Shown: piece after piece, positions 10,746-58,829 of the stretch
How the letters are laid out: each line of letters starts with the position of its first letter
Numbering within the stretch: position 1 is the first letter of the stretch
Source of the DNA: Platerodrilus igneus
Lineage: Eukaryota > Arthropoda > Insecta > Coleoptera > Lycidae
DNA length: 64,000 bases
NCBI GenBank assembly: GCA_036346225.1
Contig: JARFIW010001082.1
Location: 3,286,001-3,350,000, forward strand
Direction of reading: 5' to 3'
Made by a program: the position numbers and the translations under genes
The notes under the pieces: generated by a model
What the model saw: the letters and a program-made list of their open reading frames with translations, nothing else
The model's database searches: none
What the model was told of the DNA's origin: nothing

Positions 10746-11200
10746 TTAAGGATAGGGTAGTGCCATGGAAGGGCAGTTATGAAGTCACAGAGGATGACAC
10801 GGGGTTTAGTATTAATGTAGTAGAGGTAGAGGATGATGAAGGTAAACAGATCAACACAATAAGATGTCCAGAGGATAGGATAGTAGAGGTTCAAGCTTTA
10901 GTACAAAAACATGCAGAATTAGTGGGGGTAGAAGCAACAGCAGCATATCGGGAGCAGGTGAAGGCAGAATTAAATAAAGATGCACGAAAAATTAGTCAAG
11001 GGACCAAACCGCAATTCCATTGTCCTACATCCATGGACACATTTTTGACGAGGTTAAGTGGCAAGTTTGTTTTTAATAAAGTAGATTTAAGGAATTCATT
11101 CTGGCGGATTCCATTACATAAGAATTCTAGAAGGTACATAGGATTTTCCGTAGAGGGAAAAATCGATAATTCTAAGGTAGTATCGTTTGGTTTGTCGGCA
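10601..11200 (+). pseudogene. Pol fragment: protease end and start of reverse transcriptase
   Basis: The frame runs from the protease C-terminal part (ILGVDCMMKLG) through a linker to a reverse-transcriptase fingers segment, KFVFNKVDLRNSFWRIPL then RYIGFSVEGK. This matches gypsy RT motif 1-2 (the first catalytic Asp is in VDL). The template-grip and YxDD motifs are missing; after about 11200 the sequence becomes low-complexity and the frame, although open to 11416, no longer looks like RT. The copy cannot encode an active polymerase. Confidence 0.8.
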
Positions 11201-11880
11201 GAAAAGAAAATAAGAATAAATATGAAACAGACAAGTGTAGGGACTGAAGAGGAAGCAATAGTTAAAAGTCAGGATAATAGGGATGATAAGTTTATTGTAG
11301 GTGAGATAATAGGGATGATAAGTATAGATATCGAAGGGGGAGAAATAGGGATGAAGAGTATTAGGATGGTAAGAAGAAAGACGTGGAGGGTCAAGAAGAG
11401 AGTTAGATTTAAATAACTTGATGAACAAAGGATAGAGATAGGTGAATTTTAGTATAGATATAGAAAATAAAGCTAGGTATAGGATAAATATGGGAGATAA
11501 TTAGAAATAGGTTTAGGATGAGAATAAAGAGTAAATGTAGGAAGAAAAGAAGATAGGTTAAGTATAGATATTTCATATAAGATTAGTGGAGAGTTAGGAA
11601 TAGTGTAAGAGTAGGATAGATATATAGGATTAGGTAGGGAGAAGTAAAGTGTAGTGAAGATTAGTTTAAAAGTTAGGAATAGGATAAGTATATAGGATAT
11701 ATATATAGGATTAGATGGATAAGTAGGATGAAGTTAGGGATAATTTCAGTTTATAAAATTAGGTGAGAGTTAGGAATAGGATAGGGATATAGGATAGGTG
11801 TAAATATTTTTTTTTGATTGGATAAGGTAGGTAAGTTAGATAGATAAGGGTAGAGAGAGATAGGCATTTTTTTTTGTAAA
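11200..11880 (+). repeat. C-poor, purine-rich low-complexity tract
   Basis: Nearly 700 bp made largely of GGATAG, TAGGA and AGATA words. Over long stretches (for example 11430-11800) cytosine is almost absent on the plus strand. It replaces the missing RT-RNase H-integrase part of the element and leads into the polypurine tract at 11941-11950. Confidence 0.85.
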
Positions 11881-17051: not shown

Positions 17052-17232
17052 CTGAGGACTAGTTGTCGTGACGCTTGATGTAGAAAGGTCGATAACTGTA
17101 CCCCCAGGAGACGTGTGAGGGCCAGCTCCCTTGATTTGTGCTTGTGCAGTAGTCACGCATTTTACTGATAAGTTGATTGCTGAAAACCCCATAGGCAAAG
17201 AGCCCGCTGAAGCGTCGTATTGATACATTGGT
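17052..17232 (-). CDS. MYT1/ST18-family gene, exon e
   Basis: A 181-nt exon with acceptor TTCATACAG and donor CCTCAG|GTTAGT. It completes an Arg codon with the previous exon and ends in phase 0. The peptide is PMYQYDASAGSLPMGFSAIN followed by a Ser/Thr-rich part with GGTVIDLSTSSV. No domain is recognised; it is part of the disordered tail. Confidence 0.88.
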
Positions 17233-17284
17233 CTGTATGAAATTAATCAAGATAACACATTTTATGCATAAGCAAACTACATAC

Positions 17285-18212
17285 CGTGGATATAGTGGTC
17301 CAGTTGGTTGTTGATCGTTTTCAGTTTTTATCATTCCAGCAGCTGCTGCACTCGCCATTGCCATTTGATGTTGTGCTGCTGCCGCCGCCGCCGCCGCTTC
17401 TTGTTGATACCTATGCTCTTGTTGTTCGTCGATTGACGCGTACCCATACATTCCTTGATGAGGCCGTTGTGGCATTACCGATTGTGAAAGTGGTCCACAC
17501 TGATTAGACGAATCATATCTTTCAAATGCTGTCGGAACTCCTGGATCGTACGGCCTTGTTAATGACGTATCATAAGGTCTTGGACCCATTTCAGTAGGAT
17601 AAGTTACAGTCGGTCTAGCTATTGTTCCGCTTATAGATTCATTAATATCTCCATACGGTCGCATAGGGTGATCTGTTCTATACATTTCATCAGGTTGATG
17701 ATACGGTGATCGTTGTGGGATATGATGTTGCCGAGTATCCTCTAAACTATACCCAATATGATGCTGATTTTGATGAGGTAAATTAGTATGTTGGGGTAGT
17801 GCTTGAAGTTGCGAATGAATTCGGGAACTCATAGTTTCCATACTGGACATTGACGAAGAGTTTGAGTCTTGACTAGTATAGGGATCATAAGCAGGTCTCA
17901 AAGATGACGGTGGAGATCGACAAGAATTTACAGAAGATTCAGTTTTTGGCACTAATAAATCATTTCGTCCGGTAACACTACAACAACTCGAACTATTCAC
18001 TTCAGTTTTTGGAATTTTTAGAGAATTATCCGATTTCATTTCTTGAAATTTAGAATAATAAGAACTAAAATGTGATTTATTTTCACTTTGTTCCGATGTA
18101 TTACAGGAAGCTGAACCATATGTGACTAAATAACTAGGCTTAATATCAACTGATGCAGTCGGAGCTTGTTTATTGTCAAAGCTCGAAGAGAATTCTCCTT
18201 GGCAAGAGTTAA
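17285..18212 (-). CDS. MYT1/ST18-family gene, exon d (large Ser/Pro/His/Ala exon)
   Basis: A 928-nt exon with acceptor ATGTTTTAG and donor CCACG|GTATGT. It continues the frame of the zinc-finger exon (1 nt carried in, 2 nt out). The peptide is disordered: a Ser-rich first half, PHQNQHHIGY, RSPYHQPDEMYR, and an alanine run EAAAAAAAAQHQ encoded by a GCC/GCG-rich stretch at about 17380-17397. Near the end is IKTEN, a YKxE-type sumoylation-like site. This exon probably holds activation/repression regions. Its GC-richness stands out from the AT-rich introns. Confidence 0.9.
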
Positions 18213-18357
18213 CTAAAACATTAATAATTACAAGGTAAAGCACACTTTAGCGTATCAAAAATCTACAAATGAGATGGTTCGACATCACAATATTAGTGTT
18301 TGTATTAAAATTAAGGAAGGAATATCAGGGAAAGCGTACATGCTAAAACTAACTTAC

Positions 18358-19153: not shown

Positions 19154-19410
19154 CTGAAAGCAAACAAAAGTTACATTTAATTCATAAATCGATTTAAAAT
19201 TACGTAATTAAGAACAATCATAAAATTCAACTTCTAATAACAGCTTTTAGTATAATTAAACTATAAACTAGAACTAGAATAAATTATAAAGAGAATATGT
19301 TTTACCCAGTTGTCAGTCAGCTACATATTACATTTTTGGCTCACCAGACAACATTTAGAAAATATAGTAAAGTTCTTCTACGATAAAGTCAAAACACTAA
19401 ATTTTATTCT
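19154..19410. other. Intronic or upstream DNA, nothing recognised
   Basis: AT-rich sequence upstream of the first zinc-finger exon. No splice-bounded coding exon was identified. Confidence 0.5.
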
Positions 19411-19693
19411 GCAATGCTCCACCCGAAGGTACTACATTGGTCAGGAAGCGAGTTTTTTTATCTGGAAAATTTTGAACTATGTCGAACCCTTGCTGTTCCA
19501 AGCAAGGTAGGGATCTTTCATGTGCGTGACAACACTCACACACGGGACCTCCATTTTACCTCTCATTCGAACAAGGGCGTATTTTTGTGAAAAATGCTCG
19601 CCTAACATTGTTCAAGCGGATCGTGTCGGGATTCGAACCCGCGACTTTGGGCATAGTAGTCACAAGCCTACCAACTACGTCACAGAGCCGCAT
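19411..19693 (-). mobile_element. tRNA-derived SINE, copy 1
   Basis: A minus-strand copy of the element described at 45593-45892. At its 5' end (high coordinate) is a tRNA-like head with a B box equivalent to GGTTCGAATCCC and a degraded A box; at its 3' end is AATGTAGTACCTTCGGGTGG. Both the body and tail match the second copy closely. Target-site repeats were not evident here. Confidence 0.8.
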
Positions 19694-22867: not shown

Positions 22868-22955
22868 GGAAAATATAGGGTTTTGGACAGGACTTGAACC
22901 TGTATCCTGGTTTTGCCGGAACCATGCGTTTACCAATTACGCCACCGAGACCGAT
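22868..22955 (-). repeat. tRNA-like sequence (SINE head or tRNA pseudogene)
   Basis: On the minus strand GTGGCGTAATTGGTAAACGC resembles a pol III A box and GGTTCAAGTCC a B box. A T-arm (ACAGG/CCTGT) and an anticodon-like arm (TGGTT/AACCA) can be folded. The acceptor stem does not pair and position 33 is not T. A functional tRNA is therefore unlikely; a tRNA-derived SINE fragment fits better. Confidence 0.55.
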
Positions 22956-40804: not shown

Positions 40805-41330
40805 TGTTACGAACCACTATTAGGCAACCCGTCAAACACACAAGCTACATAACCTAAGTTCATTCTCCAGGAATCGAGAATGTTCGAGCACATACCAGAG
40901 TAAGAATCATTTATTTAATTCAGGGTATAAATAAGACCGCTGATGAAGTACAGGGTTAGTCTATATCTAAATGTCGAATATAAATCATATCGTGCAAAGT
41001 TAGTTAGTTACACTTTTGAAAGTCCTATAGTAAATATAAATTTGTGTTATGTGAACGTGTATATTCTACCGACATAAATAAACAAAAGTGTAATAAATAA
41101 ATTATAGTAGTGTTTAGTGTTGTTGAAAAGACTTATGGTTAAGGAATTAGTTTAAGAAGATATTAGTGCTTGTAAATAGCATTAGTGTGATAGTGCTTCA
41201 TTGTTAATTGGATTGAAAACACCTATAAATAAGGCATATACTGTTAATTAGACTTGTGAATAGTGAGTAATAAAGACTTTTGTTACTATTTGTTTTAAAT
41301 TAGTGAAACGCGTTATAGTAGCCGGCTACA
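40805..41330 (+). repeat. 5' LTR (526 bp) of the macrodomain element
   Basis: Starts TGTTACGAACCACTATTAGG and ends GCCGGCTACA. It contains GGTATAAATAAGACC at 40923-40937 with GGTTAGTC downstream, as a promoter and start region. Comparison with the 3' copy shows scattered differences, so the element is older than the one at 7.2 kb. Confidence 0.88.
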
Positions 41331-41331: not shown

Positions 41332-41349
41332 TGGTGTCAGGCTGTGTTG
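41332..41349 (+). promoter_or_regulatory. Primer-binding site
   Basis: TGGTGTCAGGCTGTGTTGG begins one base after the LTR end. TGGTGTCAG is a common start of the primer site in animal gypsy elements. The tRNA was not identified. Confidence 0.6.
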
Positions 41350-41401
41350 GGTGTAAAGTTTTAATTAAAAAAAAAACGCAAGACATTTGACTAGTTTGTA
41401 T

Positions 41402-42609
41402 ATGCCTGTTAGAAGAAGCCAAAGCAAAATGGACGCAGAAACTTTAATGAATTTCCTTAAGGCCTTTAAATCCGCTATGGAAGATAGGTCGGCTAAACTA
41501 GAAGTGACCCTTAGTGAAAACTTAGTGAGGTCAGTTGAACTAGACCCTTAAAGAGTTTAAATACAATATGAAAGTGACACTTAGTAAAAATGCTGACAAA
41601 ATGGAAGAAAAGTTAAGTGAAAATGCTGCAAAAATGGAAGAATAGTTTAGTGAAAATGCTGAGAAAATGGAAAGGTTAAGTGAAAAATGCTGCGAAAATG
41701 GAAGAAAAGTTGAATAAAAGTACAACCACGTTAAAACAAAAAATATTCGAAAGCTCCATTGCATTGAAAGAAGATTTCACTGAACAGGTAAAAACAGTAG
41801 AGCAAAAGTTGGACAGTAAATTGGGTAAAAATGGAAGAAGATGTGATGAAGCTGCAAGAACAGTGATTTCACTAACAACGCGGCCACTTGAATTAGCAAA
41901 CCAAGTTGTAAATCAGAACATACCAGAAATAAGAAGCATGGAAGAAAGCGAGTCAATACCGTCAAAATTTAGAGTGAAACCACTCACATTCGATAGTAAA
42001 ACACCTTGGCCCACATATTTGAAACAATTTGAAGTCGCTGCAATAGCCAAAGAGTTGGTGTAACAAAGAGAAGGCTATCTCCTTAATAGTGGCCTTACGG
42101 GGGGTAAGCTCTTAACATCTTGCAAACAATTCCCGATCACCAGCAGAATGATTACGACCTCTTAACATCGAAGCTTGAGATGAGATATGGAGACGCTCAC
42201 CTTCAACAGGTTTAATGTACAAGTAAAGAACCGCTCGCAAAAGAAAAATGAAAGCCTGCAAGAATCCGAAGCTGACATTTCCAGAATAGTTAGATTGACA
42301 TACCCAACGGCACCAGATAGGTTCATCGAACAACTGGCTATTCAAACATTTGTGGATGGCGTTAAAGTTGGCGAAATACAGCAAGCGCTAAGATTAGCAC
42401 GGCCAAAAATGTTAGATGACGCACTGGCTCATGCGCTTGAATTTGAAGCAGCTAAGCAGACATCACACAGGATGAGTCACAAAGTTCGGTCTGCCTATGA
42501 AGAACCTGGTCAATCGCAGAACAGCATAGAAGAAATAATCAACCGTGTGTTTGAAAAGCAAAAGGCGGAAAGGCTTGAAAGACAACGACCGCGGAGATGG
42601 GTTCTGTGA
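41402..42609 (+). pseudogene. Gag region, broken
   Basis: It starts MPVRRSQSKMDAETLMNFLK and is interrupted by a stop near 41548. A four-fold repeat encodes coiled-coil (41582-41715). Open frames continue with PLTFDSKTPWPTYLKQFE at 41985-42035 and then with LTYPTAPDRFIEQLAIQTF and DALAHALEFEAAKQ in the 42187-42609 frame, typical of the capsid of gypsy-type Gag in arthropods. Several frameshifts are present. Confidence 0.78.
41582..41715 (+). repeat. 33-bp tandem repeat encoding a coiled coil
   Basis: About four units of AGTGAAAATGCTGCAAAAAT GGAAGAAAAGTTA type, each encoding an 11-residue SENAAKMEEKL-like segment. Unit three has a TAG and unit four an extra A, so the array no longer reads through. 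Confidence 0.85.
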
Positions 42610-42800
42610 TGCGGGAGCTGCGATGAAGTTGGTCATATACAGAGACGCTATACTCAATCAAAAAAACAAACGGTAGCGCAGCAGGAATATGATTTTGACA
42701 CAAAACATCGTGTAGGAAATCCATCGGAATGCAGACGCTCTGTCAAAGAGACCTTGTCCGGTAGCAATCATTGCTGCAAGATGGAAGAAAAAATAAGTGT
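42607..42800 (+). pseudogene. CCHC knuckle joined to RNase H end (deletion junction)
   Basis: CGSCDEVGHIQRRY at 42610-42651 is a CCHC zinc knuckle whose last Cys has become Tyr. Some 40 bp later YDFDTKHRVGN followed by a degenerate ADALSKRPCP-like stretch is the end of gypsy RNase H. The protease, RT and most of RNase H that should lie between are gone. The breakpoint is at about 42655-42690. Confidence 0.72.
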
Positions 42801-42983
42801 CATTCATTGAATGACGGTGACTGATGATACTTGGCAACCCGAAAGTATACGAGAAGACCAGGAGAATGACGCCGAATTGGGACGTATTATTGAGTGGAAG
42901 AGTAGAGGACAACGACAAGTTTGGAAAGAAATTAGTATTTCAAGTAGGAGCCTGAAGACATACTGGGCACAGTGGGTCTCCTT

Positions 42984-43490
42984 CATCATCATTTTGTTAT
43001 CGACCTTACTTAAGGTCGGTTTGACGCAGCTCTAACTTCTTTTCTATTCTGTGCTAATCTAAAAAGCTCTACATACCCTTCACAACCTCAATTTCTAATA
43101 ATTTGACTAATATAGTTTGGTCTAGGTCTTCCTATATCCTTCTATCTTTTTCCTATCCAGCTGGCTCTACATAGATATTAGCAACCTGATGGTTGTTAAA
43201 GAACTCTAACATGTTTACATGATTACCATTTATAAGGAAATGAAATATAACCTGGTTATCCGCTTCAAAAAGGAAAAGTGTTAAATTATATGTTATGGTA
43301 AGGCTTAAGCAACGAATCGCTGCCAACATGCCAGACCGCTACCTAATTGTGAGTTATGCCATGGTGACGTTTATTAAATTATGTTATGGTAAGGCTTCAG
43401 CAACGAAACGCTACCAACATGCCAGACCGCTAACCAATTGTGAGTCATGTCCTGGTGACATTTAGTTAACTGATTTTATTTTTCTTTTTC
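42984..43490. mobile_element. Small insertion with 11-bp target duplication and 93-bp tandem
   Basis: TGGGTCTCCTT at 42973-42983 is repeated at 43491-43501. The insert interrupts the segment linking RNase H to integrase, and coding resumes in order on the other side. It contains two ~93 bp copies (43281-43373, 43374-43466) sharing GTTATGGTAAGGCTT and CATGCCAGACCGCTA. It begins CATCATCATT and has a GACCTTACTTAAGGTC hairpin near it. Likely a SINE or truncated LINE 3' end. Confidence 0.7.
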
Positions 43491-43499
43491 TGGGTCTCC

Positions 43500-44600
43500 T
43501 TGGTGATTAAAAATAAAATCTTGAAACGACGCCTTAAATGTGAAGATCGCACTGAGAGACGACTTCAAGTGATAGTGCCAAGAACGAGAGTGCCAGAAGT
43601 GTTGCAGCATTTGCACGATGGTATTTCCGAAGGGCACTTTGGAGTGAAAAGAACTCTCGAAAGAGTGAGACAAAGATTCTATTGGGTGAACTGCAAAGAA
43701 GATGTGAAGGAGTGGTGCCGGAAATGTGAGTTGTGTGCCTCTGGAAATGGCCCGGTTACAAAACGGAAAGTCCCAATAAGACAGTATAACGTGGGGAATC
43801 CTTTTGAGAGGGTGGCCATTGATATAGCTGGTCCGTTTCCTGAATCAGAGAAAGGAAATAAATACATCTTGGTTGCAATGGATTATTTTACCAAATGGCT
43901 AGAGGCGTATGCTATACCTAAGCAAGAAGCCGACACGGTTGCAGATGTACTAGTGAGGGAGTTGTATTGTCGCTTTGGAGTTCCATTGGAATTACACTCC
44001 GATAAAGGTGGAAACTTCGAATCAGCGTTGTTTCAAAACGTCTGCAAGCATCTTGGAATCAGGAAGACTAGAACCACGCCACTTCATCCTGAATCAAATA
44101 GAATAGTTGAAAGAATGAACAGAACGTTAGGAAAGTACCTAGCCAAAGTTGTTTTTGAACATCAACAAGACTGGGACAAAATATTTACAATTGTTCCTAC
44201 TGGCGTACCGATCTTCGGTACATGACAGCACAGGATACTCTCCCACTTGCGTGATGTTAGGACGTGAATTGCGGCTACCATGTGATCTTCAGTTTGGATT
44301 TAAACCTGGTGAAGAGATCGCACGTGAAGATTACGTTAGTAAGCTACGTGAAAGATCGAATAGCATTCACGAAACCGTCCGAAAGAATATCCAGGCAGCA
44401 AGCGATCGAATGAAATCAGAATATGACACGAGAGCATAAGAAGGTGGCTACCAACCTGGAGATTTAGTGCGGTTGTATAATCCACAAAGAAAACGTGGGT
44501 TGTCGCCAAAATTACAAAGACAATGGGAAGGCCCGTACGAAGTGATGAAAAGGATTAATGATGTAGTGTACCGAATCAGAAGATCTCCCGTGGTAAACCG
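43500..44600 (+). pseudogene. Integrase of the macrodomain element
   Basis: Zinc-binding part: HLHDGISEGHFGVKRTLERV with CRKCELCASGNGP (HHCC). Catalytic core: VAIDIAGPFPESEKGNKYIL (first Asp), LHSDKGGNFES (second Asp) and HPESNRIVERMNRTL (Glu), so the DDE triad is present. It continues LLAYRSSVHDSTGYSP, GRELRLPCDLQFG and, at about 44450-44600, GDLVRLYNPQRKRG with WEGPYEVMKRINDVVYRIRR, the GPY/F module. Frameshifts near 44180 and 44595 and a stop near 44440 (the codon after DTRA) break it. Function: insertion of the cDNA into host DNA. Confidence 0.92.
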
Positions 44601-44603
44601 AAA

Positions 44604-44844
44604 GTGGTACGCTTTGACCGTTTAACATCTTATGCTGGCAACAACCAGGAAGACTCGAGTAATGAGAATGATGTTCAAAGAGTTATTAATCGTGAGCCAA
44701 ACGTAGATTTTGAGAGTTTCATGGCGGCGTATGATGGTTCCGCTAAGGCGAGATTTTGCATTGTTGTTGAAAAACAGCAAGATCTGTTGAGAGCACCAGA
44801 AGCGTATTGCCTTGCACATTGCGTAGCTCAAAATCTGCAAATGT
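44604..44844 (+). pseudogene. Post-integrase linker and N-terminal part of a macrodomain
   Basis: The frame starts in the end of the integrase module (VVRFDRLTSY), passes a ~40-residue acidic linker and enters DLLRAPEAYCLAHCVAQNLQ. This is the opening strand-loop of a macrodomain (family SLAHCVS.D..MGKGIA), which contacts ADP-ribose. At 44841-44844 (ATGT) the frame is cut by insertion A; the following SRGIAIVF resumes at 51352. Macrodomains bind ADP-ribose or remove it from proteins or tRNA-like substrates. Here it would form the C-terminal part of the Pol polyprotein, an unusual place. The substrate is unknown. Confidence 0.85.
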
Positions 44845-45592
44845 TGTAACGTGTCATTTATGCCTCGTTACAATTTGCTTTCAGAAACGCAATTCGTTCA
44901 TGTTGCGTAAGGTTAAATGTTATAATTTGGCGACGGGTTGCAAGACACTACCATGTCGTTATTTAGTTTAGTTGTTTTGTCGAATGTCAAATCGTTCTTA
45001 ACAAGCTTGGTTTCAATTAATTATTGCTTTTTTATATTCAAGTGGACTGTGTCAATGTTATTAAATAACAATGATTCAGACAACGATAATCAAATACACC
45101 TTGACTGTATTGATTGTCTGAATATTGAACTTTGTTAGTGCCGACCTTCAACTGGGAATTTATTAGTTAGGTTCAACCATATATTGCTATTGTGATACCG
45201 GTTGTTCTTATCAACAAGATATAAAATGTATTATACACATTACATGGATCTTGTTGGGTGCAGCATACTTTGTGCAAGTCTCAGAAGAGGCACGCCCTAT
45301 TGTAATTTTCATGGAGTGGTCCTGAAAATAAAGTTAATTATACAAATTAGTTTGGGGCACCCTTTTCTCATCGAGGAGAATTTTATAAAGAGTATTAAAG
45401 GAATTTCCTGGCTTAAGATATTTATTTTGTGGAGGACATTTAGCACTTGGTGAGTACTTCCAGCAAGAATTGAAATCTCAAATAAAAAACTTTTTAGCAT
45501 TATTGATTATTGGTCGTGTGACTTATTGTGGTTACCAACAATTGCGTTGATTATTATAAAGTGGAACCACTTAGAAAAGTGTAAGTAATTGC

Positions 45593-45892
45593 GTTACATG
45601 TGATTTTCCAATGCTCCACCCGAAGGTACTACACTGGCCAGGAAGCGAGTTTTTGTTACCTGGAAAAATTTTGAATTTTTGCCGAATCCTTGCTGTTCCA
45701 AGCAAGGTAGGGATCTTTAACGTGCGTGACAACACTCACACACGGGACCTCCATTTTACCTCTCATCCGAACGAGGGTGTATTTTTGCGAAAAATGCTCG
45801 CCTAACATTTTTCAAGCGGACCGTGTCGGGATTCGAACCCGGGACCTTGGGCGTAGTAGTCACACACATACCACTACGCCACGGAGCCGCCT
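45593..45892 (-). mobile_element. tRNA-derived SINE, copy 2, with 13-bp TSD
   Basis: TGTAAGTAATTGC at 45580-45592 is repeated at 45893-45905. On the minus strand the element starts GGCGGCTCCGTGGCGTAGTGG (A-box region; the first 20 bases are the tRNA-like head) and has GGTTCGAATCCC (B box) about 40 bp on. A ~180 bp body follows, ending CCAGTGTAGTACCTTCGGGT then GGAGCATTGG. The same 3' motif occurs in the LINE at 51476-55942. Pol III transcription from the internal boxes is expected. Confidence 0.88.
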
Positions 45893-46389
45893 TGTAAGTA
45901 ATTGCAGCAATAACCTTCAAATTTTAATTTGTGTGTACAGGGTTCTTTGGTACGGAGTATTCTTTCGGTACGGAATATTCTTTATCCGTGGGAGATTCTT
46001 TATTTCTGTTGGGAATCATATGGAGCTTCCTGTCCAACGTTGTATCGAGTGATACAAGATCAGACTCGTCTTGCAGCAAACTGGTTTGGTCGTTGAAGAC
46101 GAAATCCAGCAGGCTTGGACATCTGGCACTTTTATCACAGGTTTTTTATTGATTAAAACTCATATGGTTGTTTGTCTATTTAATGTTTTTTTTTGTGCAT
46201 ATTGTGCATGTTTAATTAATTTGTTTTTGTGGGAATATACTATAGTACCAAATTATATATATATATATATTTTAATTGAGTAAAACAGGGTTTAGGGAAT
46301 TTATATCTGGTATGATAGTCACTTACAATATTAAATTACATATCTACTTGTATGCAGTAAGGTCTAGCTTTCAGCAGATGCCTGAACCA

Positions 46390-47445
46390 CTCGTTTTTTT
46401 TGTCATCATCATTGGGGCTTCAGTCCTGAAACTGGTTAGACGCGTACCATCATTGTTTCCTATTCTGAACTAACCTACAGATTTCCCCGAAATTTGCACA
46501 GTCTGCATCTATCACTATCTGATCTAGGTCTACATCCACCTCTTTTTTCCTATCTCTGCTTGTCATATATCCCATACTATTCCCCAAAAATGCCGTAGAA
46601 CGTATTCTGCCCTTCTATTTCTCATATTTTTTTCCCAAGTATATCCTTGTTCCCTTACTGTTTCTATAACCTATTTGTTATTACCTTTGTCTGTCCATCC
46701 TCAACATCTGAAGCACTGCATTTCAAAGGCCGCTACTGTTCTTCTGTCTGCTTTTCAGACTGCTCGTATTTCGTAGGCATATTGTCTGTGCTGTGCTCCA
46801 CACATACGCTTTCAACAACTTTTTGTTCTATGTTTGTTGTCATTCATCATAGGCGCCGTTCTTTCTTGTTAGATGCAGATCGGTCACCTTCTATTGTTTT
46901 ACAATTATATACCCTATTTCTCCGACATTCAGTGGTTGCGAAGGGGGGTAAGCAGCCGGTGGCTGCCAAGTTCCCCCAGCACTTGAACATTTTCTGATTT
47001 AATATTTTTTCCAATATGTCTTTTCGCACAGTCAACATTAGTCGCAGATATTTCACAACAAACAACTATTGTTTATAATAATCATCAGATTTGTCTGTGC
47101 TTATTTTTTCGTCATTGGGTTTCCCGTCTCAAAACTGGTTAGACATGTACCTGCACTTATTTCTTTTTTATACTAACCTGCATGGTTCCCTAAAATTCTC
47201 ACACAGCAATACAGCTCGGTTCCCCTTATATTGTTTTCAAATATTATGCCCTATTTCACAGAGATTTATTGAAGGGGGTTAAGCAACCTGTGGCTGCCAA
47301 GATCCCCCAACACTTAGACATTTGCCGAAATAATAGTTTTCCAGTAAATGCTTTCACGCAATTACCATTATTCGAGAATATTGCCCCTCCAATGCTTGTA
47401 GTTGCTTATAATAAATATCATGTTTAAGTGCAGCTACTTTCTTCG
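46390..47445 (-). repeat. Degenerate, stacked RTE-type LINE 3' fragments
   Basis: Two 5'-truncated 3' ends in the same orientation precede the longer copy at 47448. Each starts (plus sense) with TCGTCATTGGG or TCATCATTGGGG followed by CTGAAACTGGTTAGAC. The first, 46393-46850, corresponds to the RT C-terminal region in degenerate form. A separate ~100 bp block (GGGGGTTAAGCAACCTGTGG type) occurs at 46905-47000 and 47240-47335 between the copies. Confidence 0.65.
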
Positions 47446-47453
47446 TCATTAAT

Positions 47454-48713
47454 TTATCCATCTTGGGACTGGTTGGATGCGTACCTCCATTGATTTCTCT
47501 TCTGAGCTAGCCTACACATTTCCCTGAAACTCCTACAGCCTACATCTTTCACTATCTGTGTGCAGTAGTCTAACCTAGGTCTACCTCTTCTTCTCTTTTT
47601 TCCTATCTCTGCTTCTAGTATATTCCGCACTATTCTTTCATGCCGTAGTATGTGGCCTATCATCCTATCTCTCCTATTTTTTACCGTTTTCCACATATTG
47701 CTTTCTTCCCCTACCATTTTTAGTACCTCTTTGTTCTTAACTTTGTCTGTCCATGATATCTTCATCATACGTCTGTAGCACCACATTTCAAAGGCTTCTT
47801 CTACCTTTTTCTTGTCCGCTTCTCCCACTGTCCAGGCTTCACAGCCATACAGTGCTGTGCTCCACACATATGTTTTGAGCAATCTTTTCCTTGTTTCTAT
47901 GTTTGTGGTCTTTGAGCACAGTAGTTGCTTTTTCTTGTTAAATGTAACACGACCTTGTGCTAATCTTTGTTTTATATCTTTTGTGCTTTTCCCATCTTGC
48001 GTTATTTGGCTTCCTAGGTAGCAGAAATCCTTAACCTCTTGTAAGTTCGTGTTACATATTTGTATTCTTGTTTTTGATTTATATTTCCCTCCTTTGCATA
48101 CTAGTACTTTAGTTTTACTTTTGTTAATTTTCATACCGTATCTCTCTGTTAGAACCGTTTCCAATTCATTGAGAGCAGCTTCTAAGTCTTCCTTGCTAGA
48201 TGTTAATACCGCTATATCATCTGCAAATCTAAGCATATCAATTTTTTGTCCTTGCATAGTAATTCCAAATGTCTTCTTGCATTTGACAGTATTCATTGCC
48301 TCCTCAATGTGCAAGTTAAAAATTAGTGGGGATAGGGAACATCCCTGCCTTACCCCTTTCCTGATGTTTACTTCTCTACGTTCCTGCTCTAATTCTATTA
48401 CTCCTGTTTGCTCTTTGTATAAGCTATGTACTATCCGTCTATCCCTATAACTCATTCCAATCTTTTTGAGTATTTCAAACGTTTTTTTCCATTTTACATT
48501 GTCAAATGCTTTTTCCAGATCTACAAACCCTATATACACGCTTTCCCCTTTTTCTATTGTTTTCTCCATTATCACCCTCAAAGCTAAGATAGCCTCCCGT
48601 GTTCCCCTGTTTCGCCTAAACCCAAATTGGTCTTCTCCTAGTATTTCTTCAGCCCGTTTTTCCATTCGTCTTTGTACAATTCTAGTTAGTATTTTTGACA
48701 CGTGTGCTGTCAA
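47454..48713 (-). CDS. RTE ORF part 2: reverse transcriptase
   Basis: A 419-residue frame continuing the RT one base out of register. It has QFGFRRNRGTREAILALR, VYIGFVDLEKAFDNV (first catalytic Asp), KGVRQGCSLSPLIFNL, MLRFADDIAVL (FADD box) and the C-terminal GRPRLDYCTQI region. All key RT residues are intact, so the break is recent or may be a sequence error. RT copies the element's RNA at the nicked target. Confidence 0.94.
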   Translation of the reverse strand: MTAHVSKILTRIVQRRMEKRAEEILGEDQFGFRRNRGTREAILALRVIMEKTIEKGESVYIGFVDLEKAFDNVKWKKTFEILKKIGMSYRDRRIVHSLYKEQTGVIELEQERREVNIRKGVRQGCSLSPLIFNLHIEEAMNTVKCKKTFGITMQGQKIDMLRFADDIAVLTSSKEDLEAALNELETVLTERYGMKINKSKTKVLVCKGGKYKSKTRIQICNTNLQEVKDFCYLGSQITQDGKSTKDIKQRLAQGRVTFNKKKQLLCSKTTNIETRKRLLKTYVWSTALYGCEAWTVGEADKKKVEEAFEMWCYRRMMKISWTDKVKNKEVLKMVGEESNMWKTVKNRRDRMIGHILRHERIVRNILEAEIGKKRRRGRPRLDYCTQIVKDVGCRSFREMCRLAQKRNQWRYASNQSQDG

Positions 48714-48715
48714 GC

Positions 48716-50302
48716 TTATTGTTCGAAAATTTCTGCGCCTTTCTTTTTTGGTATAGTTACTATGATGTTATGTTTAAAATCTTTGTGTATCTCGCCTGTC
48801 TCATACATATAGCTTACAAGTTGGAAGAGACATTCTGTTACTGCTTGATCAGCGGCTTTTAGAGTCTCCGCTTGCACCTTATCTGTACCCGGCGCCTTAC
48901 CATTTTTCAGACCCTTTAATGCTATTTCAAATTCATCTCTAAGTATAGGATATCCCAAGTCATCATTTTCAATGTCTGATTCCTTTTCTAATGCAGTTAG
49001 TTCTTCTCCTACATATAAATTCCCTATATATTCTTGCCATCTACCCACTTTCTCTACATTTTCTATAATGACATTTCCTCCCGCGTCCCTTATATTTTTG
49101 CTATACGGTTCTATATCCCTAAAATTCATTCTAATTAATTGGTATGCTTCGTCTGTCTTTCCTACTTCCATCTTATTTTGTACCTCTTTGCACTTTTCAT
49201 CAATCCATTGTTCTTTAGCTTTCCTGTATTTTCGAATAATTTCCCATTTTATGGCTTTGTATCTCTGTTTTCCTGTTTCATCTGATTTATTTTTGTATTT
49301 TCGTTTTTCTTCTATTAAATTCAGGATATCCTTTGTTATCCATGGTTTCTTATTTACTTTTTGTGTATACCCCAGAATATCTCTGGCCGCCATGTTGAGG
49401 CTGGATTTAATGTTATTCCATTCTGTTTCTACTTCCTTAGTATCAGATATTTTCCCGATATCTTTGAGCAATTCATTTGACCTTTTTTCGAATCTTTCTT
49501 GAATATCTTTCTCTTTTAGTTTCTGTAGGTCTAAGTGCCTTTTTCCGTTCCTTTTTTTCAAATTTTTAAATTTAAGTGCGGCCTTCATAATTACGATGTT
49601 GTGGTCAGTGTCTATATCTGCTTCTGGGTAGCTTCTACAGTCTTTTACTTGATTCCTAAACCGTTGTCTAACAAGAATGTAATCTATTTGATATCTTCCT
49701 ATATCTCCTGGCATCCTCCACATATATCGTCTTCTAGCATGATGTGGAAATAACGTGTTTGTAATGATTAAATTGTTCTTGTCGCAAAATTCTACCAGCC
49801 TATTTCCTCTGTCGTTTCTAGTGCCTAAACCAAATAAACCTACTATCGCTCCTTCCCTACCCTCACCTACCACTGCATTAAAATCCCCCGTAATTATTAA
49901 ATTTTCCTGTCCTTTTACGTGTCTTAATATGTCTTCGATATCTTTGTAGATTGCTTCTACCTCTTCGTCACTGTAGCTAGAGGTGGGCATGTATACTTGT
50001 ATTATTACTGTGTTTACCGGTTTAGATTCTAATCTAACCATGAGTACTCTTTCATTCTTTTGTAAGTAATTTTCTACACAGTATCCTATCTTTTTCCGCA
50101 TAACTATACCCACACCCAAATTTCCTTCCTCGGCTCCTGTATGAATTACCCTGAAGTCTCCACTCCAAAAATCCCCCGCCTCTGGCCACCGAACTTCGCT
50201 GATCCCTACTATGTCTAATGATAACCTATTCATTTCGATTTTTAGGTTCTCTAGCTTACCCACTTGCTTCATAGTTCTAACATTCCACGCTCCGACTCGC
50301 AA
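48716..50302 (-). CDS. RTE ORF part 1: AP endonuclease and start of RT
   Basis: A 528-residue open frame. Residues 1-230 form the endonuclease: WNVRTMKQVGKLENLK, then ISEVRWPEAGDFWSGD (catalytic Glu), then ITGDFNAVVG, and YQIDYILVRQR with DTDHNIVI (final Asp/His). A basic linker follows. The RT starts with EIALKGLKNGKAPGTDKVQA and TIPKKKG. The start codon MRVGAWNVRTM is the conserved beginning of this endonuclease. The frame ends a few codons after PKKK because of a 1-nt shift. The endonuclease nicks the target DNA to prime reverse transcription. Confidence 0.93.
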   Translation of the reverse strand: MRVGAWNVRTMKQVGKLENLKIEMNRLSLDIVGISEVRWPEAGDFWSGDFRVIHTGAEEGNLGVGIVMRKKIGYCVENYLQKNERVLMVRLESKPVNTVIIQVYMPTSSYSDEEVEAIYKDIEDILRHVKGQENLIITGDFNAVVGEGREGAIVGLFGLGTRNDRGNRLVEFCDKNNLIITNTLFPHHARRRYMWRMPGDIGRYQIDYILVRQRFRNQVKDCRSYPEADIDTDHNIVIMKAALKFKNLKKRNGKRHLDLQKLKEKDIQERFEKRSNELLKDIGKISDTKEVETEWNNIKSSLNMAARDILGYTQKVNKKPWITKDILNLIEEKRKYKNKSDETGKQRYKAIKWEIIRKYRKAKEQWIDEKCKEVQNKMEVGKTDEAYQLIRMNFRDIEPYSKNIRDAGGNVIIENVEKVGRWQEYIGNLYVGEELTALEKESDIENDDLGYPILRDEFEIALKGLKNGKAPGTDKVQAETLKAADQAVTECLFQLVSYMYETGEIHKDFKHNIIVTIPKKKGAEIFEQ

Positions 50303-50735
50303 AATGTTCCCGACTCTTATTCTTAACTTTCCGATCGCATCCTCCGAAGTAGTCCCCTCCCGGAGATCCGAATGGGGGACTTTTAACTCCGGAATCTTTT
50401 ACCCCAGAGAATGCCATCTTTTTTATTATTATTTAGGTACGCTGTGTACTTGGGAGGTAATGTGGTGGTTTCCCGTTGCCTTCCACATCGCGGTAGTGTG
50501 TCTTAGACTGCCATACCGACCCCTATGGTCTCTGCCAATCTAAGTACAGAAAGAGCCGCTGCCCTCTTTCGGGGACCTGTCTTTGTCTGGTTCCTCACTA
50601 ACGACCCTACTACTTTGGTTGGACCTGTAGTTTGGCTCTTTAGCTCATTAGAACACGCAAACCATTTCACCTGTTCTAGTAATCTAGAACTTCGGCAAGG
50701 TGCAGGTCCATTCGAAATTGTATAACAATATTATA

Positions 50736-51347
50736 ACCTGATATCGGGGTCGCAAACCGGATTGACATATTGCCTAACATACAAGGGAAAGTGCACTACC
50801 CCTGAATAATAATAGCTACATTAATCTTGATTAATACATTCATAGTGCACTCCTTGTGTACTCCTTGAATAATTTCTCTGCTCTCAGTAAATATATTTTT
50901 AGTGTTAATTAAATGTGATTTTGGGCTCAAGCCAAGTTGATTGGGAGTGTAAATATTTTTTTTTGTCAGCATATATATATATTGATTCATGAATATAGGT
51001 ATAATAATTGGATATATAATTGTGTTTTGATTGAGTCGGATCTACTTGAACATTTATAGTATCAGGGACAATTAAGTTTGATTGCAGGGACTAAGTTGTT
51101 TTCTCTTAAGGTATGGTGTTTAGTGGCCTATTATTGCAATTGTCGCCCCTCGTATTTTCAGCACTAACCATCAACTACCCACGGCCCACTACTGTTGCTA
51201 GTTCGGAAATTGCACCATATTCTACGCTAACCGTTCAGGGATGATTTCCTTTGGGATTCCTAAATTGATCGGAGCCAACTAACGAATATACCAAACTTTA
51301 TTTTTATTTCGTATACTTATTAGCGAGTGCCTGAAGTATACGTTACA
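50736..51347. other. Right part of insertion A, non-coding
   Basis: AT-rich sequence with a short TATATATATAT run at 50981-50990, continuing to the LTR-like end CGTTACA. No gene was recognised. Confidence 0.5.
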
Positions 51348-51351
51348 ATGT

Positions 51352-51475
51352 CAAGAGGGATAGCTATTGTGTTTTAGAAAAAGTTTGGATGTGTGGATGA
51401 ATTAGTATAACAGCCGCCAACTGTAGGAAAAGCTTTGGTTCTTCAGGATAGAAATCGTTGTTTACTATCTGGTCA
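51352..51475 (+). pseudogene. Middle part of the macrodomain
   Basis: Reading continues from the target duplication with SRGIAIVF, a TAG stop, KKFGCVDELV, another stop, then TVGKALVLQDRNRC. The first piece is the glycine-rich loop of the macrodomain (family GKGIAV.FK..FG), where ADP-ribose phosphate binds. The second piece aligns with the following conserved strand. Two stop codons show decay. The piece ends at the 14-bp target duplication TTACTATCTGGTCA of insertion B. Confidence 0.8.
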
Positions 51476-52788
51476 TTATAATTTGAATTAGGGCCGCTAT
51501 ACTTGCGGCCACGTCCCCAATGCTCCACCCGGAGGTACTACATTGGGTTTAAACGCGAAAAATAGTCGTGCTCCTAATTTATTCTTACTTCATAGTTGAT
51601 TCACCCTAAATAAAAACTAAATAAAAATCTAACAAACCTAAAAATCTAACAAACCTAACAAACTCTAACAATCTAACAAACCTAAAAATCTGACAAAAAC
51701 TGGAACAAAAACAAAACAAAAACTAAAAACAGGGTTGTAAATAATGGTATCCCTAGCGCTGACTTTCGAGTGCACCCGATCAACAAGCAAAAATGAGAGG
51801 GGGAGGGATTCGTAATACCGGATAGCAGACGCCGGTTCTGCTTACCAGTGCGACTTGAAGGGTCGTCTTAAAACTATCCAAATCTAGCTAACTAATTTAA
51901 ATCCATCCCTAGCTTTCCCTATCGTTCCCTAACTGATTTACATTATGATTACAATCTTCGCAATTCTGCTCGTCCTTCCCAAATATATACTGCAACCAAA
52001 ATGGCGACAGAACGTCAAACAAAAGAAATAAGCCACATAATACATGCTATATATAAATAAATATAAAGTGTAAATATAAAATATAAATAAATATAATTAT
52101 GTAAATATATAAATAAATGTTTAATAAGCGTTAAGCGTTAAGCATATAGCAGTGCACAAAATAGCAAAAGCATCACCCTATTTATCAGGTGCACTCGCAC
52201 AAGCATTATGTCGGCTAGCGCCTTTACACACCAAACGTGCTTCTTAAATTATTTCAAAACTACTAATTAATGTAAATCAATGCTTGTGCGAGTACAGCCG
52301 CCACAATTTAAGTCTTACCTCGATAATAAAATTCTCCAGCATCCGAAGATCTGGTCGTCTGTAACTTACTTCTAAAGGTGGGACGGGTGCACTGCTAAAG
52401 TCCTGGTGGGTATGCACTAAATGTTCTTGGGGATCACAATCACTATCACTATCACTTCACTTTCAAGTCCGGGGGGATGCGCGGTTGCGCTCTGTTTTAT
52501 TATCCTTGTTTACTTTATTGATTTAATTTAATGAGGGTTTATGATTTATTTGTTATTGTTTATTTGGTATTATTTATTCCCGATTTTCCGCACATAATTA
52601 TGAAGATAGGCAGTGATTGTATTAATGGAGTGGGGTTTCTCGTGCATATTGGACATTTTGGTATAATTATCTTTTTTTTTTTTTTTTAAATATCAGGTTT
52701 TGGTTATGCTCGTATCCTTACTCACGCCAAGTCAATATAAAATTTTTCAATCCTCCCACCAACCCCACCGAATTTTTACACGCGGTCG
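51476..52788 (-). other. 3' UTR of the R1-like LINE
   Basis: About 1.3 kb without coding sequence, with a T-run at 52673-52688. The 3' terminal ~75 bp include the SINE-shared motif at 51518-51548 and a short hairpin GGCCGC..GCGGCC (51494-51514). Confidence 0.75.
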
Positions 52789-55409
52789 TCATTGATTGTC
52801 TAATCTCGCGACCCTTCCCGCGAATTCTTTTAAGGCTGTCCAGAACGCCTTCTGGTTAACCACTTCCCCGACTTCCTCTAGGCTGTTTGGCCATGCCAGA
52901 CCTAGGATAGCTAGTTTGCTATCAGCCAACCCTCGATTTCCCGCCTCAAGCGGGCAGTCGAAGAGCACGTGCTCTGCGCTTTCCGCGCCCTCACCGCATT
53001 CGCAGCGGTCGCTGTTGGTTAGACCGAACCTTTGTAAATACGCCTTCAGGGCGCCGTGCCCTGTTATCAACTGCACCATTTTGTGATCGAGCTTAACCTC
53101 AATCTTACCTCTGGCTTCTATGCTCGGTATGAATTTGTGGGTCAACCTGCCCGTGGCAGCGTTGTTCCACCTCTCTTCCCATTGTCGAATTGATTTTTCG
53201 CGCAGCTTTCTTTTGATTAAAGACAGAAGCTGCATACAGTATTGCCGGCTCAATTGCTCCGGCATAAACCGTCCTCAGCGATTCGCCCCTGAAACCCCAC
53301 TTTATTTTAGCCGCCGCCATCATTTTATTTGATATTTCGCCGCCCTTACTTTTTACGTATTGTACGTGCGCTTTCCAATTTAATTTATTGTCGATCTTGA
53401 CGCCGAGGTAGGTAATACAATCTTTAAACGGATTTTCTCCCTCCTAGCTCTAACCTAGGAGGTCTCTGTCCTGGTTTCGTGCCGAAATAAAGCGCCTCTG
53501 ACTTCGCCGTGTTAAATTTTAATTTTACCGCCTGCGACCATTCGTGCAATTTATTAAGCGCCTCGTTCGGTTTTGTGCGCATATCCATTAACAATCTCGA
53601 TCTTACAATTAAAAGTGTGTCATCTGCAAACCCAACGATTGAGCATCCTGCGGGCAACTTGACCCTAAAGATGCTCTCATACAACAACTTCAAAATGTGG
53701 GACCAGAACATGACCCTTGCGGGCATCCCTTTCCACCTCACGCGACAGAACTTCACCCGGAATTTCAACCTGTGCTAATCGCCCGAGAAATAGCTCTTGA
53801 CCAAAGACATCAAGTTTCGCGGACAACCCCTACGATCTAACTCGCAAACGATTAATGGCCACCAGGCAGCATCAAATGCTCCTGAAATGTCCAAAGCAAC
53901 AACGACACAGTACTCTTTGGCATCTCTTGCCTGCTTGATTTCCCCGACAACGAACTCTAACGCGTCGATAGTCGACTTGCCCTCCACGAAACCAAACTGT
54001 CGGTTATTAAAACCGCCGCTGTCTCGCACTAGGTGTTCAACACGCGTAGTCATAACGCGATCTAAAACTTTCCCCAGCACCGGTAGCAAGCTAATTGGAC
54101 GATAGCTGCCCGGATCTGACGCATCCGCCTTTTTAGGTTTGGGTATAATTTTCACATTCTGGATTTTCCAGCAACGCGGAAAAACGCCCCTTTCTAAACA
54201 AAGATTAAACAACCCAACAAAGACACACGGGGCTAACAGGCACGCCTGCAGAGCTGCGTCTGAAGTGATTCCATCATGCCCCGGTGCCTTCTTAGGGTTC
54301 ATCCTCCTAAGAGCCCTGACGACCTCGTGAACTAGGATCGCCTTATTGGCACCTGTTCCTTGCGCCTTTGCAGCTTCCCGACGTATTAAATCGTGCGACC
54401 CTTCATCCCCCTCGGGATTATCCGATTACCCGCTTGGTTGTTAGTTCCCGGGTCCACCAGGGTACGCTGTCTTTAAATGTTTTCTTTTGCGACATGGAAT
54501 ACGACGACGCGTTTACCACCGCGTCGTTCAATTTTTTCGCGAGTGTTTCTACTTCGTCTGCCTCTCGGCAGTTAAATAGCTCATTTTCGAGCGCAGGGAT
54601 ACTTTCGCCAAATTTTTCTTTAAACCGCTCCCAATTTGCTTTTTTATTACAGAACCGCGGAAATATAGTTAGCTGCTCGTTTGCGCTTGTTTTGGTTTCA
54701 ACGTCCCATGTTATTAATTTATGGTCAGAGAGCGTTTCCTCGTCCGACCTTAGTTTCCAATTACAAATCGTTTCTAACATTTCGTGCGAGACTGCAGTAA
54801 TATCTATAAAACTGCTGCCTCTATGCGTCTCAAACGTAGGTGAATCATTAGTGTTTATCACACTAAGGTCCCATCCCGTAAAAAGATCAGCAACCTGCGA
54901 GCCTCTATCGTCTTCGATAGGGCTGCCCCATAATGGCGACTTAGCATTAAAGTCTCCCGCGATAATTAAATTTCTATTTCTACCGATTTTACGAAGGATT
55001 CCTTCAATTTGATTTATTAAGTCCTCTGTTTGAGGATTCTCTCGCCGGAATCGATCGGCGGAAGGTAAGTGCTTATCACGTAAAACGTATGCAATCCCGT
55101 TTTTATTTCTGCGGTGGTTATGAACTCATTCGACAGATTGTTTAGGATTATTCCGGCGCACGTCCCGTTATTTATTATTATCCCGCTACGCGGTCGTTCG
55201 CTGTTTGCGTTTAAAACGGTAACCCCCTTCCCAAAACCTGTTATTTTGTGGCTATACAGGTGCGGTTCCTGTATAAGCCCGATGTCGATATTATTTTCGC
55301 TGAATATCTTTACGAAGTTATTTGTAGCCCCTTTTCCTTTCCCGAGATTTAGTTGCGCGAATTTAATCTTCTTGCTTCTTTTAAATCTATCTTTTTCTTC
55401 ACGGTCCAT
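52789..55409 (-). pseudogene. ORF2 of the R1-like LINE (endonuclease-RT), frameshifted
   Basis: Starts MDREEKDRFKRSKKIKFAQL at 55409. The endonuclease is at 55409-54860 (LNLGKGKGATN, LIQEPHLYS, STYLPPIDS). RT is in pieces at 54302-53775 (NPKKAPGHDGI, YRPISLLPVLGKVLDRV, QFGFVEGKSTIDALE, VVALDISGAFDAAWW) and 53768-53424 (GFADDTLL box). The C-terminal part at 53265-52789 has CECGEGAESAEHVLFDCP, a CCHC-type motif. At least four frame breaks are present. Confidence 0.88.
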
Positions 55410-55942
55410 AATCGATGTTGCGTGTGATTGCGTTCTTCAATCTCAGCATCGTGGGGCATCTACTCGACTTGGCGTCGTGGCGCGTATCGACCTTCGCGCC
55501 ACCGCCAGTTCTGTCGTTTGCCCTAGCGCAAACCACACAGCAGGGGTCTGCCCTCCGGCAATTCTTGAACTCGTGACCGACTTCGGCACAGTTACCGCAC
55601 CACTGTACCTTCTCCCTGCACTCCATCGATCTATGGCCGTACTCGTAGCACCTGTAGCACTGGGTCATCGAGAAGTGGTCCCGGGCCCAGACTCTTCGCC
55701 ACCTGAGGTTTATAGCGTCAGCTAATATACGTCTCCGAAGTGTGGGGGTCACTTCGAAGATTACGTTGACGAAGGGATCCCTAGGGCCCTTTCCTCCAAA
55801 CCTAAATTTCTCCCTCAGGTGGTCTTCAATCTTCAAATCGCCGAAGCGGGGATTCTGGCACGCGATCAACCGCACCAGCTCTTCCGCCTTCATCCCCGCT
55901 TCGACCCCCGGAAGAACGACCCGTGGGCGCTTCTTCTCGATG
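55399..55942 (-). pseudogene. ORF1 (Gag-like) of the R1-like LINE, 5' truncated
   Basis: It reads from the truncation point through GMKAEELVRLIACQNP to the zinc knuckles CYRCYEYGHRSMEC, CGNCAEVGHEFKNC and CCVVCARAN. The last ORF1 codons overlap the ORF2 start: ATGGACCGTGA holds both the ORF2 ATG and the ORF1 TGA. Such overlaps suggest coupled translation of ORF2; that is inference. ORF1 would bind the element's RNA. Confidence 0.85.
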
Positions 55943-56204
55943 TTACTATCTGGTCACCAAAAATTCTTCATGGCAGAGACCTAGTTACGGACATCTGTGG
56001 AAGGCTTTGCTGAATCTTAAAGCTCAGATGATGGAAAATGGAGTAACGAGAGTAGCGGTGCCCAAGCTAAGCTGTGGACTGGATCGCTTAGATTGGAGAA
56101 TAGTCCGAAATATGCTAGAAGTAATTTTCCAGGGAACCAACGTCCAGATCCTTGTTTGTTGCTATCAACCGGTTGCCTATCAAGACCAAAAAAAAGAGTA
56201 TTGA
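55943..56204 (+). pseudogene. C-terminal part of the macrodomain
   Basis: CYYLVTKNSSWQRPSYGH, then LWKALLNLK and VPKLSCGLDRLDWRIVRNML, then NVQILVCCYQ. These match the second half of macrodomains of the ADP-ribose glycohydrolase (TARG1/Poa1-like) type: YLVTK, P.Y..LW..L, P.L.CGLD.L.W..V and the closing strand I.V. The catalytic Lys/Asp pattern (VTK, CGLD) looks kept. A run of eight A at 56189-56196 shifts the frame just after. Confidence 0.9.
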
Positions 56205-56330
56205 CTGTTATTTCCAACGACGTAGTGGATGCACCAGAGGAGATAGCTGCCGATACGGTCATCAGTCATCGAATTGGCGTCAAAATGTTTTTACAGTTAC
56301 GGGACGTAACGGTTTTAAAGAAGGGGCAGT
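56205..56330 (+). pseudogene. CCCH zinc finger after the macrodomain
   Basis: One frame away from the macrodomain, after the A run, the sequence reads CYFQRRSGCTRGDSCRYGH: Cys-x7-Cys-x5-Cys-x3-His, a full CCCH finger of the RNA-binding type. The frame continues open to the 3' LTR. The polypurine tract AAAGAAGGGGCAG at 56317-56329 follows immediately. Confidence 0.8.
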
Positions 56331-56494
56331 GTTACGAACTACTATTAGGCAACCCGTCAAACACACAAGCTACATAACCCAAGTGCAATCTCCAGGAATC
56401 GAGAGTGTTCGGGCACATACCAGAGTATGAATCATCTATATAATTCAGGGTATAAATAAGACCGCTGATGAAGTATAGAGTTAGTCTATACACT
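56330..56494 (+). repeat. 3' LTR of the macrodomain element, truncated
   Basis: It matches the first ~165 bp of the 5' LTR, including GTATAAATAAGACCGCTGAT, then departs from it after TTAGTCTATA. The remaining ~360 bp are not found. The break coincides with the start of the next repeat block. Confidence 0.88.
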
Positions 56495-58337: not shown

Positions 58338-58829
58338 ATTCAGTTTTTCTTCTATGGGTTATAGGTCCTGTTTAAAAAAATAATAAAAGGCGTACTCTTT
58401 TTATTCCATCTGAATTTTCGAGTATATTTGTACTCTTGGTCACAGATTAAATAGTTGAGATTGTGTAATTACTGGCATGTGTAACAGGAAACATTTTTAA
58501 AAAACTATTTAGAACAATTACAAAATTGACAGTTTCTGACAAATGACATATAAATTAAAACATTTGTATATAAACATGCAAACTAAACTAGAGTCTCTAG
58601 AGTCTCTAGTTTAGTTTGCATGTTTATATACAAATGTTTTAATTTATATGTCATTTGTCAGAAACTGTCAATTTTGTAATTGTTCTAAATAGTTTTTAAA
58701 ATGTTTCCTGTTACACATGCCAGTAATTACACAATCTCAACTATTTAATCTGTGACCAAGAGTACAAATATACTGAAAATTCAGATGGAATAAAAGAGTA
58801 CGCCTTTATAAACAGCCTATAAATGAAAC

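Follow-up and report, generated by a model that had tools for sequence, protein, structure and literature searches.

A Ty3/Gypsy retrotransposon lineage of beetles with a TARG1-type macrodomain and a CCCH zinc finger behind the Pol integrase

The 64,000-nucleotide stretch of Platerodrilus igneus DNA analyzed here (contig JARFIW010001082.1, referred to as the window) contains an old, broken Ty3/Gypsy element in which the integrase is followed by a split macrodomain, a CCCH zinc finger, a polypurine tract (PPT) and a 3' long terminal repeat (LTR). Its copies and relatives almost certainly represent a Ty3/Gypsy lineage, known by name from beetles only, whose Pol polyprotein ends in the order integrase, TARG1-type macrodomain, CCCH finger. 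This cassette lies within the LTRs and is inherited with the elements. The parts of the window copy are as follows.

40805-41330, plus strand: 5' LTR (TG...CA), with a 161-nt match to the 3' LTR; its end was inferred from the CA and the stretch resembling a primer-binding site (PBS) behind it
41332-41351, plus strand: PBS-like stretch, TGGTGTCAGG..., assigned by its position directly after the 5' LTR
41402-42609, plus strand: gag remnant in several broken frames, extent judged by eye (open reading frames, ORFs, at 41680-42063 and 42184-42609)
about 43470-44222, plus strand: integrase H2C2 and rve core (PF17921, E 1.9e-20; PF00665, E 2e-16)
44440-44616, plus strand: integrase C-terminal SH3/GPY-F module, in another frame than the core (PF22938, E 2.2e-7; PF24626, E 1.4e-6, its score slightly below the cut-off)
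44604-44844, plus strand: linker and N-terminal macrodomain piece, p1 (tblastn to viral TARG1-like loci, E 2.8e-4)
51348-51475, plus strand: middle macrodomain piece, p2, with 2 stops and a frame change (match to viral loci, E 0.11; the p1 and p2 values were computed against the few fetched viral loci alone)
55943-56201, plus strand: C-terminal macrodomain piece, p3 (PDB 4j5r, human TARG1/OARD1, E 8.8e-14, match 55953-56201)
56188-56265, plus strand: CCCH zinc finger, C-x7-C-x5-C-x3-H (zf-CCCH_3, E 4.8e-5, under its cut-off), in a frame different from that of p3
56317-56329, plus strand: PPT, AAAGAAGGGGCAG, immediately 5' of the 3' LTR
56330-56490, plus strand: truncated 3' LTR, of which 161 nt remain, 150/161 identical to the 5' LTR

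The LTR pair, the PPT and the PBS-like stretch together identify the element as an LTR retrotransposon. The Ty3_capsid match of its gag remnant is weak (E 0.058, under the cut-off). The original prediction held that the macrodomain follows the integrase GPY/F module in the same frame. The order was confirmed, and the continuous frame was not found in the window copy, in which a stop and two frame changes separate the integrase core from p1, two stops and a frame change (the latter read against other copies) interrupt p2, and a further frame change precedes the finger. The frame that holds the finger enters the 3' LTR for about 100 nt before its stop. The window ORF list contains no protease or reverse transcriptase frame before the integrase, a stretch that was not searched further. 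The region where these would be expected, 42610-43470, has no recognized retroelement frame and includes two 90-bp repeats in tandem at 43289-43469.

Other copies in the same genome (2.714 Gb) were sought with p3 as the query. This gave 8,846 first-look candidates, of which the best 150 were scored; these were 89-100% identical to p3, the window's own copy included, and the match was free of stops in 146 of them. Forty other copies were fetched from the 150, with 20 picked for long open frames and 20 taken from the remaining plus-strand rows. The integrase and the GPY/F module were each recognized in 38/40 copies, p1 in 39/40, and p2 (partial in L027), p3 and the finger in all 40; no integrase was found in the fetched stretches of L027 and L045. 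The macrodomain is unbroken in some copies, and in 9/40 the frame is open from ahead of the integrase match through the finger. The PPT and LTR start were located by motif in 35/40 copies, always 135-137 nt beyond the end of p3 (for L045 the distance was taken from its own p3), and in 32 of these 35 the stop of the p3 frame lies inside the 3' LTR. The predicted order of finger, PPT and 3' LTR, with the fusion inside the element, was borne out. Upstream stretches of two copies contain protease, reverse transcriptase and RNase H together with a CCHC knuckle. All three enzymes are present in L101 and integrase through finger was read in L023, L024 and L028, which gives the Ty3/Gypsy order with a GPY/F integrase at the level of the family.

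Two explanations were rejected on this evidence. First, a chance match is excluded by the order of the pieces and by the unbroken domain of other copies. Secondly, the possibility that the macrodomain is a separate host gene beside LTRs is excluded by the order in the 40 copies, the in-frame position in the relatives described below and the constant PPT spacing. The other outcome that would have spoken against the prediction is copies that end right after the integrase; the 40 copies, which were chosen through their match to p3, all have the macrodomain core. A Pfam Macro search of the same genome returned 20 places. Seventeen of these passed E 0.001 and score 30-32 bits; seven of the 17 were fetched, and macrodomain and finger were present in 7/7 and integrase with GPY/F in 6/7. 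Three places (L063-L065) score 51-68 bits, and two of these share one contig about 15 kb apart. No element domains were found near them by tblastn, and they look like host-like macro-domain exons.

The integrase-to-finger region of one copy was used to search protein databases, which gave 1,639 proteins at E<=1e-10, and the 120 listed were examined. Macrodomains in these relatives were detected with a hidden Markov model (HMM) in which the element domain was combined with viral and phage domains. Of the listed relatives, 42/120 have the macrodomain, about 30-43 residues past GPY/F. The other 78 lack it; 66 of these continue for just 5-34 residues beyond GPY/F, and the remaining 12 have longer tails of a different kind with no macrodomain match. 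A species name is attached to 34 of the 42 macrodomain proteins, and all are from beetles: Aromia moschata (27), Callosobruchus maculatus (3), Diabrotica virgifera (2), Harmonia axyridis (1) and Molorchus minor (1); eight carry no species name. Lineages for three of the five species place them in Cerambycidae, Coccinellidae and Chrysomelidae, families that belong to two superfamilies of Cucujiformia. Relatives without the macrodomain occur within beetles too, for example P0024 of Henosepilachna and P0092 and P0101 of Aromia. Protein database searches with p3 alone gave no match, with only 8 (514-1634 aa) and 3 (149-472 aa) candidates, and the integrase piece was sought in viral contigs and found in none.

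An integrase tree was built from 96 stretches with the macrodomain excluded from the alignment. It omits 25 of the 120 proteins, which cover less than 60% of the stretch; every one of the 25 has the macrodomain and 22 are Aromia gene models, so the tree covers 17/42 macrodomain proteins and the same-genome copy. These 18 rows, with P0014 and P0017, form one clade (SH-aLRT, an approximate likelihood-ratio support, 99), and the label of macrodomain presence changes twice on the tree, versus about 17 times in shuffles. P0014 and P0017 lie in or beside this clade without the domain. The end of P0014 is out of register with its kin and looks like a shifted frame, and P0017, 361 aa long, is a fragment encoded on a contig of 1,236 bases. 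Because the macrodomain rows share one integrase clade, the simplest history is that the lineage captured the macrodomain once.

Judged from its sequence and a predicted model, the domain is a macrodomain of the TARG1 (OARD1) type, in the ALC1-like class. The unbroken domain of another copy matches PDB 2eee and 4j5r at E 9e-38 to 2e-37. The predicted domain model has the macrodomain fold with TARG1 as its nearest structure, at 1.1 A. The p3 piece holds the equivalents of TARG1 Lys84 (VTK) and Asp125 (CGLD). Among the same-genome loci the catalytic Lys is present in 55/55 and the Asp in 54/55; among the database proteins, gaps excluded, the counts are 39/41 and 38/40. The Pfam Macro model is a blind spot for these domains. 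For example, it labels none of the 120 listed relatives, though the HMM finds the domain in 42; p3 scores 20.4 bits against a Pfam cut-off of 22, and the four element sequences scanned score 20.4-23.3 bits, one of them above the cut-off.

The source of the domain was addressed with a quick tree of 54 rows, rooted at the midpoint, in which OARD1 is the sole animal row and from which 28/42 macrodomain proteins and 4/14 viral loci are omitted. The 15 element rows form one clade (98) that adjoins animal OARD1 (92), apart from bacteria and viral contigs. With a midpoint root and one animal row, capture from an animal TARG1 is favored and not established; by sequence, an animal-type TARG1 gene is the likelier donor. 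A phage or gut-bacterial source was considered, as 14 viral and 28 bacterial loci were found, and was rejected since the tree separates the element clade from both. These loci (L001-L014 and L073-L100) are TARG1-like single-domain proteins from viral contigs and bacteria, mostly Bacillota, and one viral contig (L010) and one bacterium (L088) show zero difference in the domain tree. When a model of the relative P0045 was compared with BFVD, the best-ranked viral structures were Kadipiro virus VP8 and those of thrips flavi- and negev-like viruses; on these models, TARG1-like macrodomains seem to be present in insect viruses as well.

Selection was measured as the ratio of nonsynonymous to synonymous differences (pN/pS) among gapless, stop-free same-genome loci, 25/55 for the macrodomain and 20/55 for the integrase; gaps, stops and short matches removed 30 and 35 loci, respectively. 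Pooled pN/pS is 0.251 for the macrodomain and 0.213 for the integrase, values lowered for both domains by the omission of decayed copies. The ratio falls with divergence from 0.91 in the 28 closest macrodomain pairs to 0.17 in the 23 most distant, and from 0.45 in the 4 closest integrase pairs to 0.25 in the 21 most distant, a trend that fits post-insertion decay atop older constraint. Variants confined to single copies have nonsynonymous to synonymous counts of 41:36 (macrodomain) and 48:43 (integrase), and those in at least three copies have 5:10 and 6:20. The macrodomain half outside the query gives 0.39 (codon bootstrap 0.22-0.69), and the two integrase halves give 0.22 and 0.21. Thus, the macrodomain is under purifying selection about equal to that on the integrase, with wide limits.

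These results bear on the notion that a host TARG1 gene or fragment was merely picked up, or came by chance to lie beside LTRs, and has no role. The broken window copy, in three pieces, and the pN/pS near 1 of the closest macrodomain pairs would suit it. Set against these are the single integrase clade across three beetle families, the overall pN/pS below 1, the conserved catalytic residues and the constant spacing to finger and PPT, by which the notion is largely refuted already; we consider it very improbable.

A functional proposal draws on three lines of background. According to the available part of PMC9411070, TARG1 takes off ADP-ribose that is attached to Glu/Asp or to the phosphate ends of either DNA or RNA. 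In Drosophila lacking PARP-1, the misregulated mobile elements are mostly upregulated, and many belong to the gypsy superfamily. Macrodomains are parts of RNA viruses and matter for replication; some reverse host ADP-ribosylation, and those of alphaviruses and coronaviruses are hydrolases. From these we infer that the element carries an eraser of ADP-ribosylation with its integrase. The macrodomain, a predicted active mono-ADP-ribosyl hydrolase, would remain joined to the integrase or be released by the element's protease, and would reach the nucleus together with the complementary DNA (cDNA). There it could clear ADP-ribose added by PARP enzymes of the host from element proteins, cDNA ends or the nicked target site, which would keep integration from being blocked or silenced, while the CCCH finger might tether the macrodomain to element RNA or cDNA. 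We put this mechanism as a whole, read from the sequences, at an even chance; that a beetle retrotransposon lineage encodes its own ADP-ribosylation eraser within the integrase polyprotein is a more tentative claim. The original prediction had suggested that such an element could counter host defence. That interpretation is partly supported, and the role in defence stays conjectural.

Several points weigh against this interpretation. First, 27 of the 42 macrodomain proteins are Aromia copies, mostly near-identical, so the protein counts are not independent. Secondly, three of the 42 (P0005, P0009 and P0049) have lost one or both catalytic residues. Third, the GAGIA loop of TARG1 is altered in 40/40 covering proteins, mostly to MS[RK]GIA, with S in 35/40 and then R in 33/40 or K in 5/40 replacing GA. 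This is a consistent difference at a loop that is not a defining feature of the TARG1 class in the sources consulted on it, and substrate or activity may have changed. Fourth, the closest pairs (pS < 0.03) have a pN/pS of 0.91 in the macrodomain and 0.45 in the integrase, which post-insertion decay would produce and which is also the weakest part of the case, and the 0.11 of the p3 half is partly biased low by the search, p3 being the query. Fifth, the PARP-1 effect may be indirect according to its authors, and ten elements missed the significance threshold. Lastly, the eraser mechanism is a prediction from sequences and a model.

The altered loop and the three proteins with a lost dyad residue would fit binding without strict catalysis, and thus the main rival, in which the macrodomain is a reader that, by binding ADP-ribose where chromatin is damaged or PARylated, guides the integrase to such sites, with hydrolysis secondary or absent. 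The TARG1 fold, retained in the predicted model, and the position behind GPY/F in Pol, where chromoviruses carry their chromodomain, suit it as well. However, the Lys/Asp pair, presumably dispensable for binding, is retained in most proteins and nearly all same-genome loci. The place of the domain fits eraser and reader alike, the kept pair tips the balance to an enzyme, and we hold the reader to be unlikely. A third proposal, less probable again, is that the domain protects the ends of element RNA or cDNA from ADP-ribosylation in the cytoplasm, with the finger as an RNA anchor, and that integration is not its site of action. The finger adjoins the macrodomain in 40/40 copies, the nearest viral structures include those of insect RNA viruses, and phosphate-linked ADP-ribose at the ends of RNA and DNA is a substrate of TARG1 (PMC9411070, available part). 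The fusion of the domain to the integrase speaks against such a site, and ADP-ribosylation of RNA in beetles is an assumption.

The macrodomain of the window copy had been described as three pieces split by two insertions, and both insertions were verified, with exact target duplications.

44845-51347, no strand assigned: first insertion, 6.5 kb, with ends TGTAACG...CGTTACA
44841-44844, no strand assigned: target duplication ATGT of the first insertion, exact, right copy at 51348-51351
47454-50398, minus strand: non-LTR element nested in the first insertion, with endonuclease and reverse transcriptase in two long frames
51476-55942, minus strand: second insertion, a non-LTR retrotransposon in the macrodomain (endonuclease PF14529, E 6e-23; reverse transcriptase PF00078, E 1.4e-17)
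51462-51475, no strand assigned: 14-base target duplication TTACTATCTGGTCA of the second insertion, exact, right copy at 55943-55956

No LTR pair for the first insertion is present in the window repeat list; its ends and 4-base duplication also fit Ginger-type DNA transposons, which we take to be a candidate class. Diverged repeats of parts of the nested non-LTR element lie at 46403-47203. A CCHC-like ORF was seen by eye in the second insertion, with no Pfam match. Elsewhere in the window, a repeat of about 295 bp occurs in two copies, 89% identical (45595-45890 and 19398-19691), and a near-perfect palindrome lies at 58416-58779, with arms of 103 nt (98%, no spacer) and 87 nt (97%). A second gypsy-like remnant (9465-11416) has a coil-like ORF and a weak reverse transcriptase match (E 0.0071). 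The minus strand holds a tRNA-Ala (GGC) at 22878-22951 and, at 17059-18246, a Gln/Ala/Ser-rich frame of 395 codons that looks like a host regulatory protein and has no Pfam match at E 0.1.

Seen across beetle families, a macrodomain fused in frame to the integrase of a Ty3/Gypsy element connects insect retrotransposition with ADP-ribosylation and yields a testable claim about an insect defence. If the eraser proposal is true, insects would use ADP-ribosylation against retrotransposons and the elements would have evolved a direct counter; alternatively, strand transfer in these elements would need de-ADP-ribosylation at the target. In keeping with the original prediction, none of the literature matches listed (titles and abstract starts, mainly from open journals, without repeat libraries) describes an insect or Ty3/Gypsy element with a macrodomain.

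The lineage shares with Ty3/Gypsy elements (Metaviridae) the LTRs, CCHC gag, protease, reverse transcriptase, RNase H, H2C2-rve-GPY/F integrase and PPT, and adds the macrodomain and CCCH finger after GPY/F. In chromoviruses, a chromodomain that reads histone methylation is situated behind the integrase. In both lineages the Ty3/Gypsy integrase ends in a domain captured from a host, whereas the beetle one is specific to ADP-ribose and has the catalytic pair of an enzyme. TARG1/OARD1 (C6orf130) itself is a small free-standing host protein, while the beetle domain belongs to the Pol of a retrotransposon and has a GAG loop that is mostly S-R/K-G, unlike that of TARG1. Viral macrodomains are also comparable, namely those of alphaviruses, coronaviruses, insect flavi-, negev- and virga-like viruses and Kadipiro virus VP8. 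Among reverse-transcribing elements, Epsilon-like endogenous retroviruses of fish likewise encode a macro domain (Basta et al. 2009, as cited in PMC4977317); as described in the available part of that source, it is an additional ORF, which sets it apart from the Pol-frame fusion behind the GPY/F integrase in beetles. Lastly, insect R1/TRAS long interspersed elements bear a viral helicase domain, as stated in the available parts of PMC4686597 and PMC5563155. They are a precedent for an extra enzyme domain fused into an insect retrotransposon polyprotein, and differ from the beetle Ty3/Gypsy lineage in being non-LTR elements with a helicase of viral origin.

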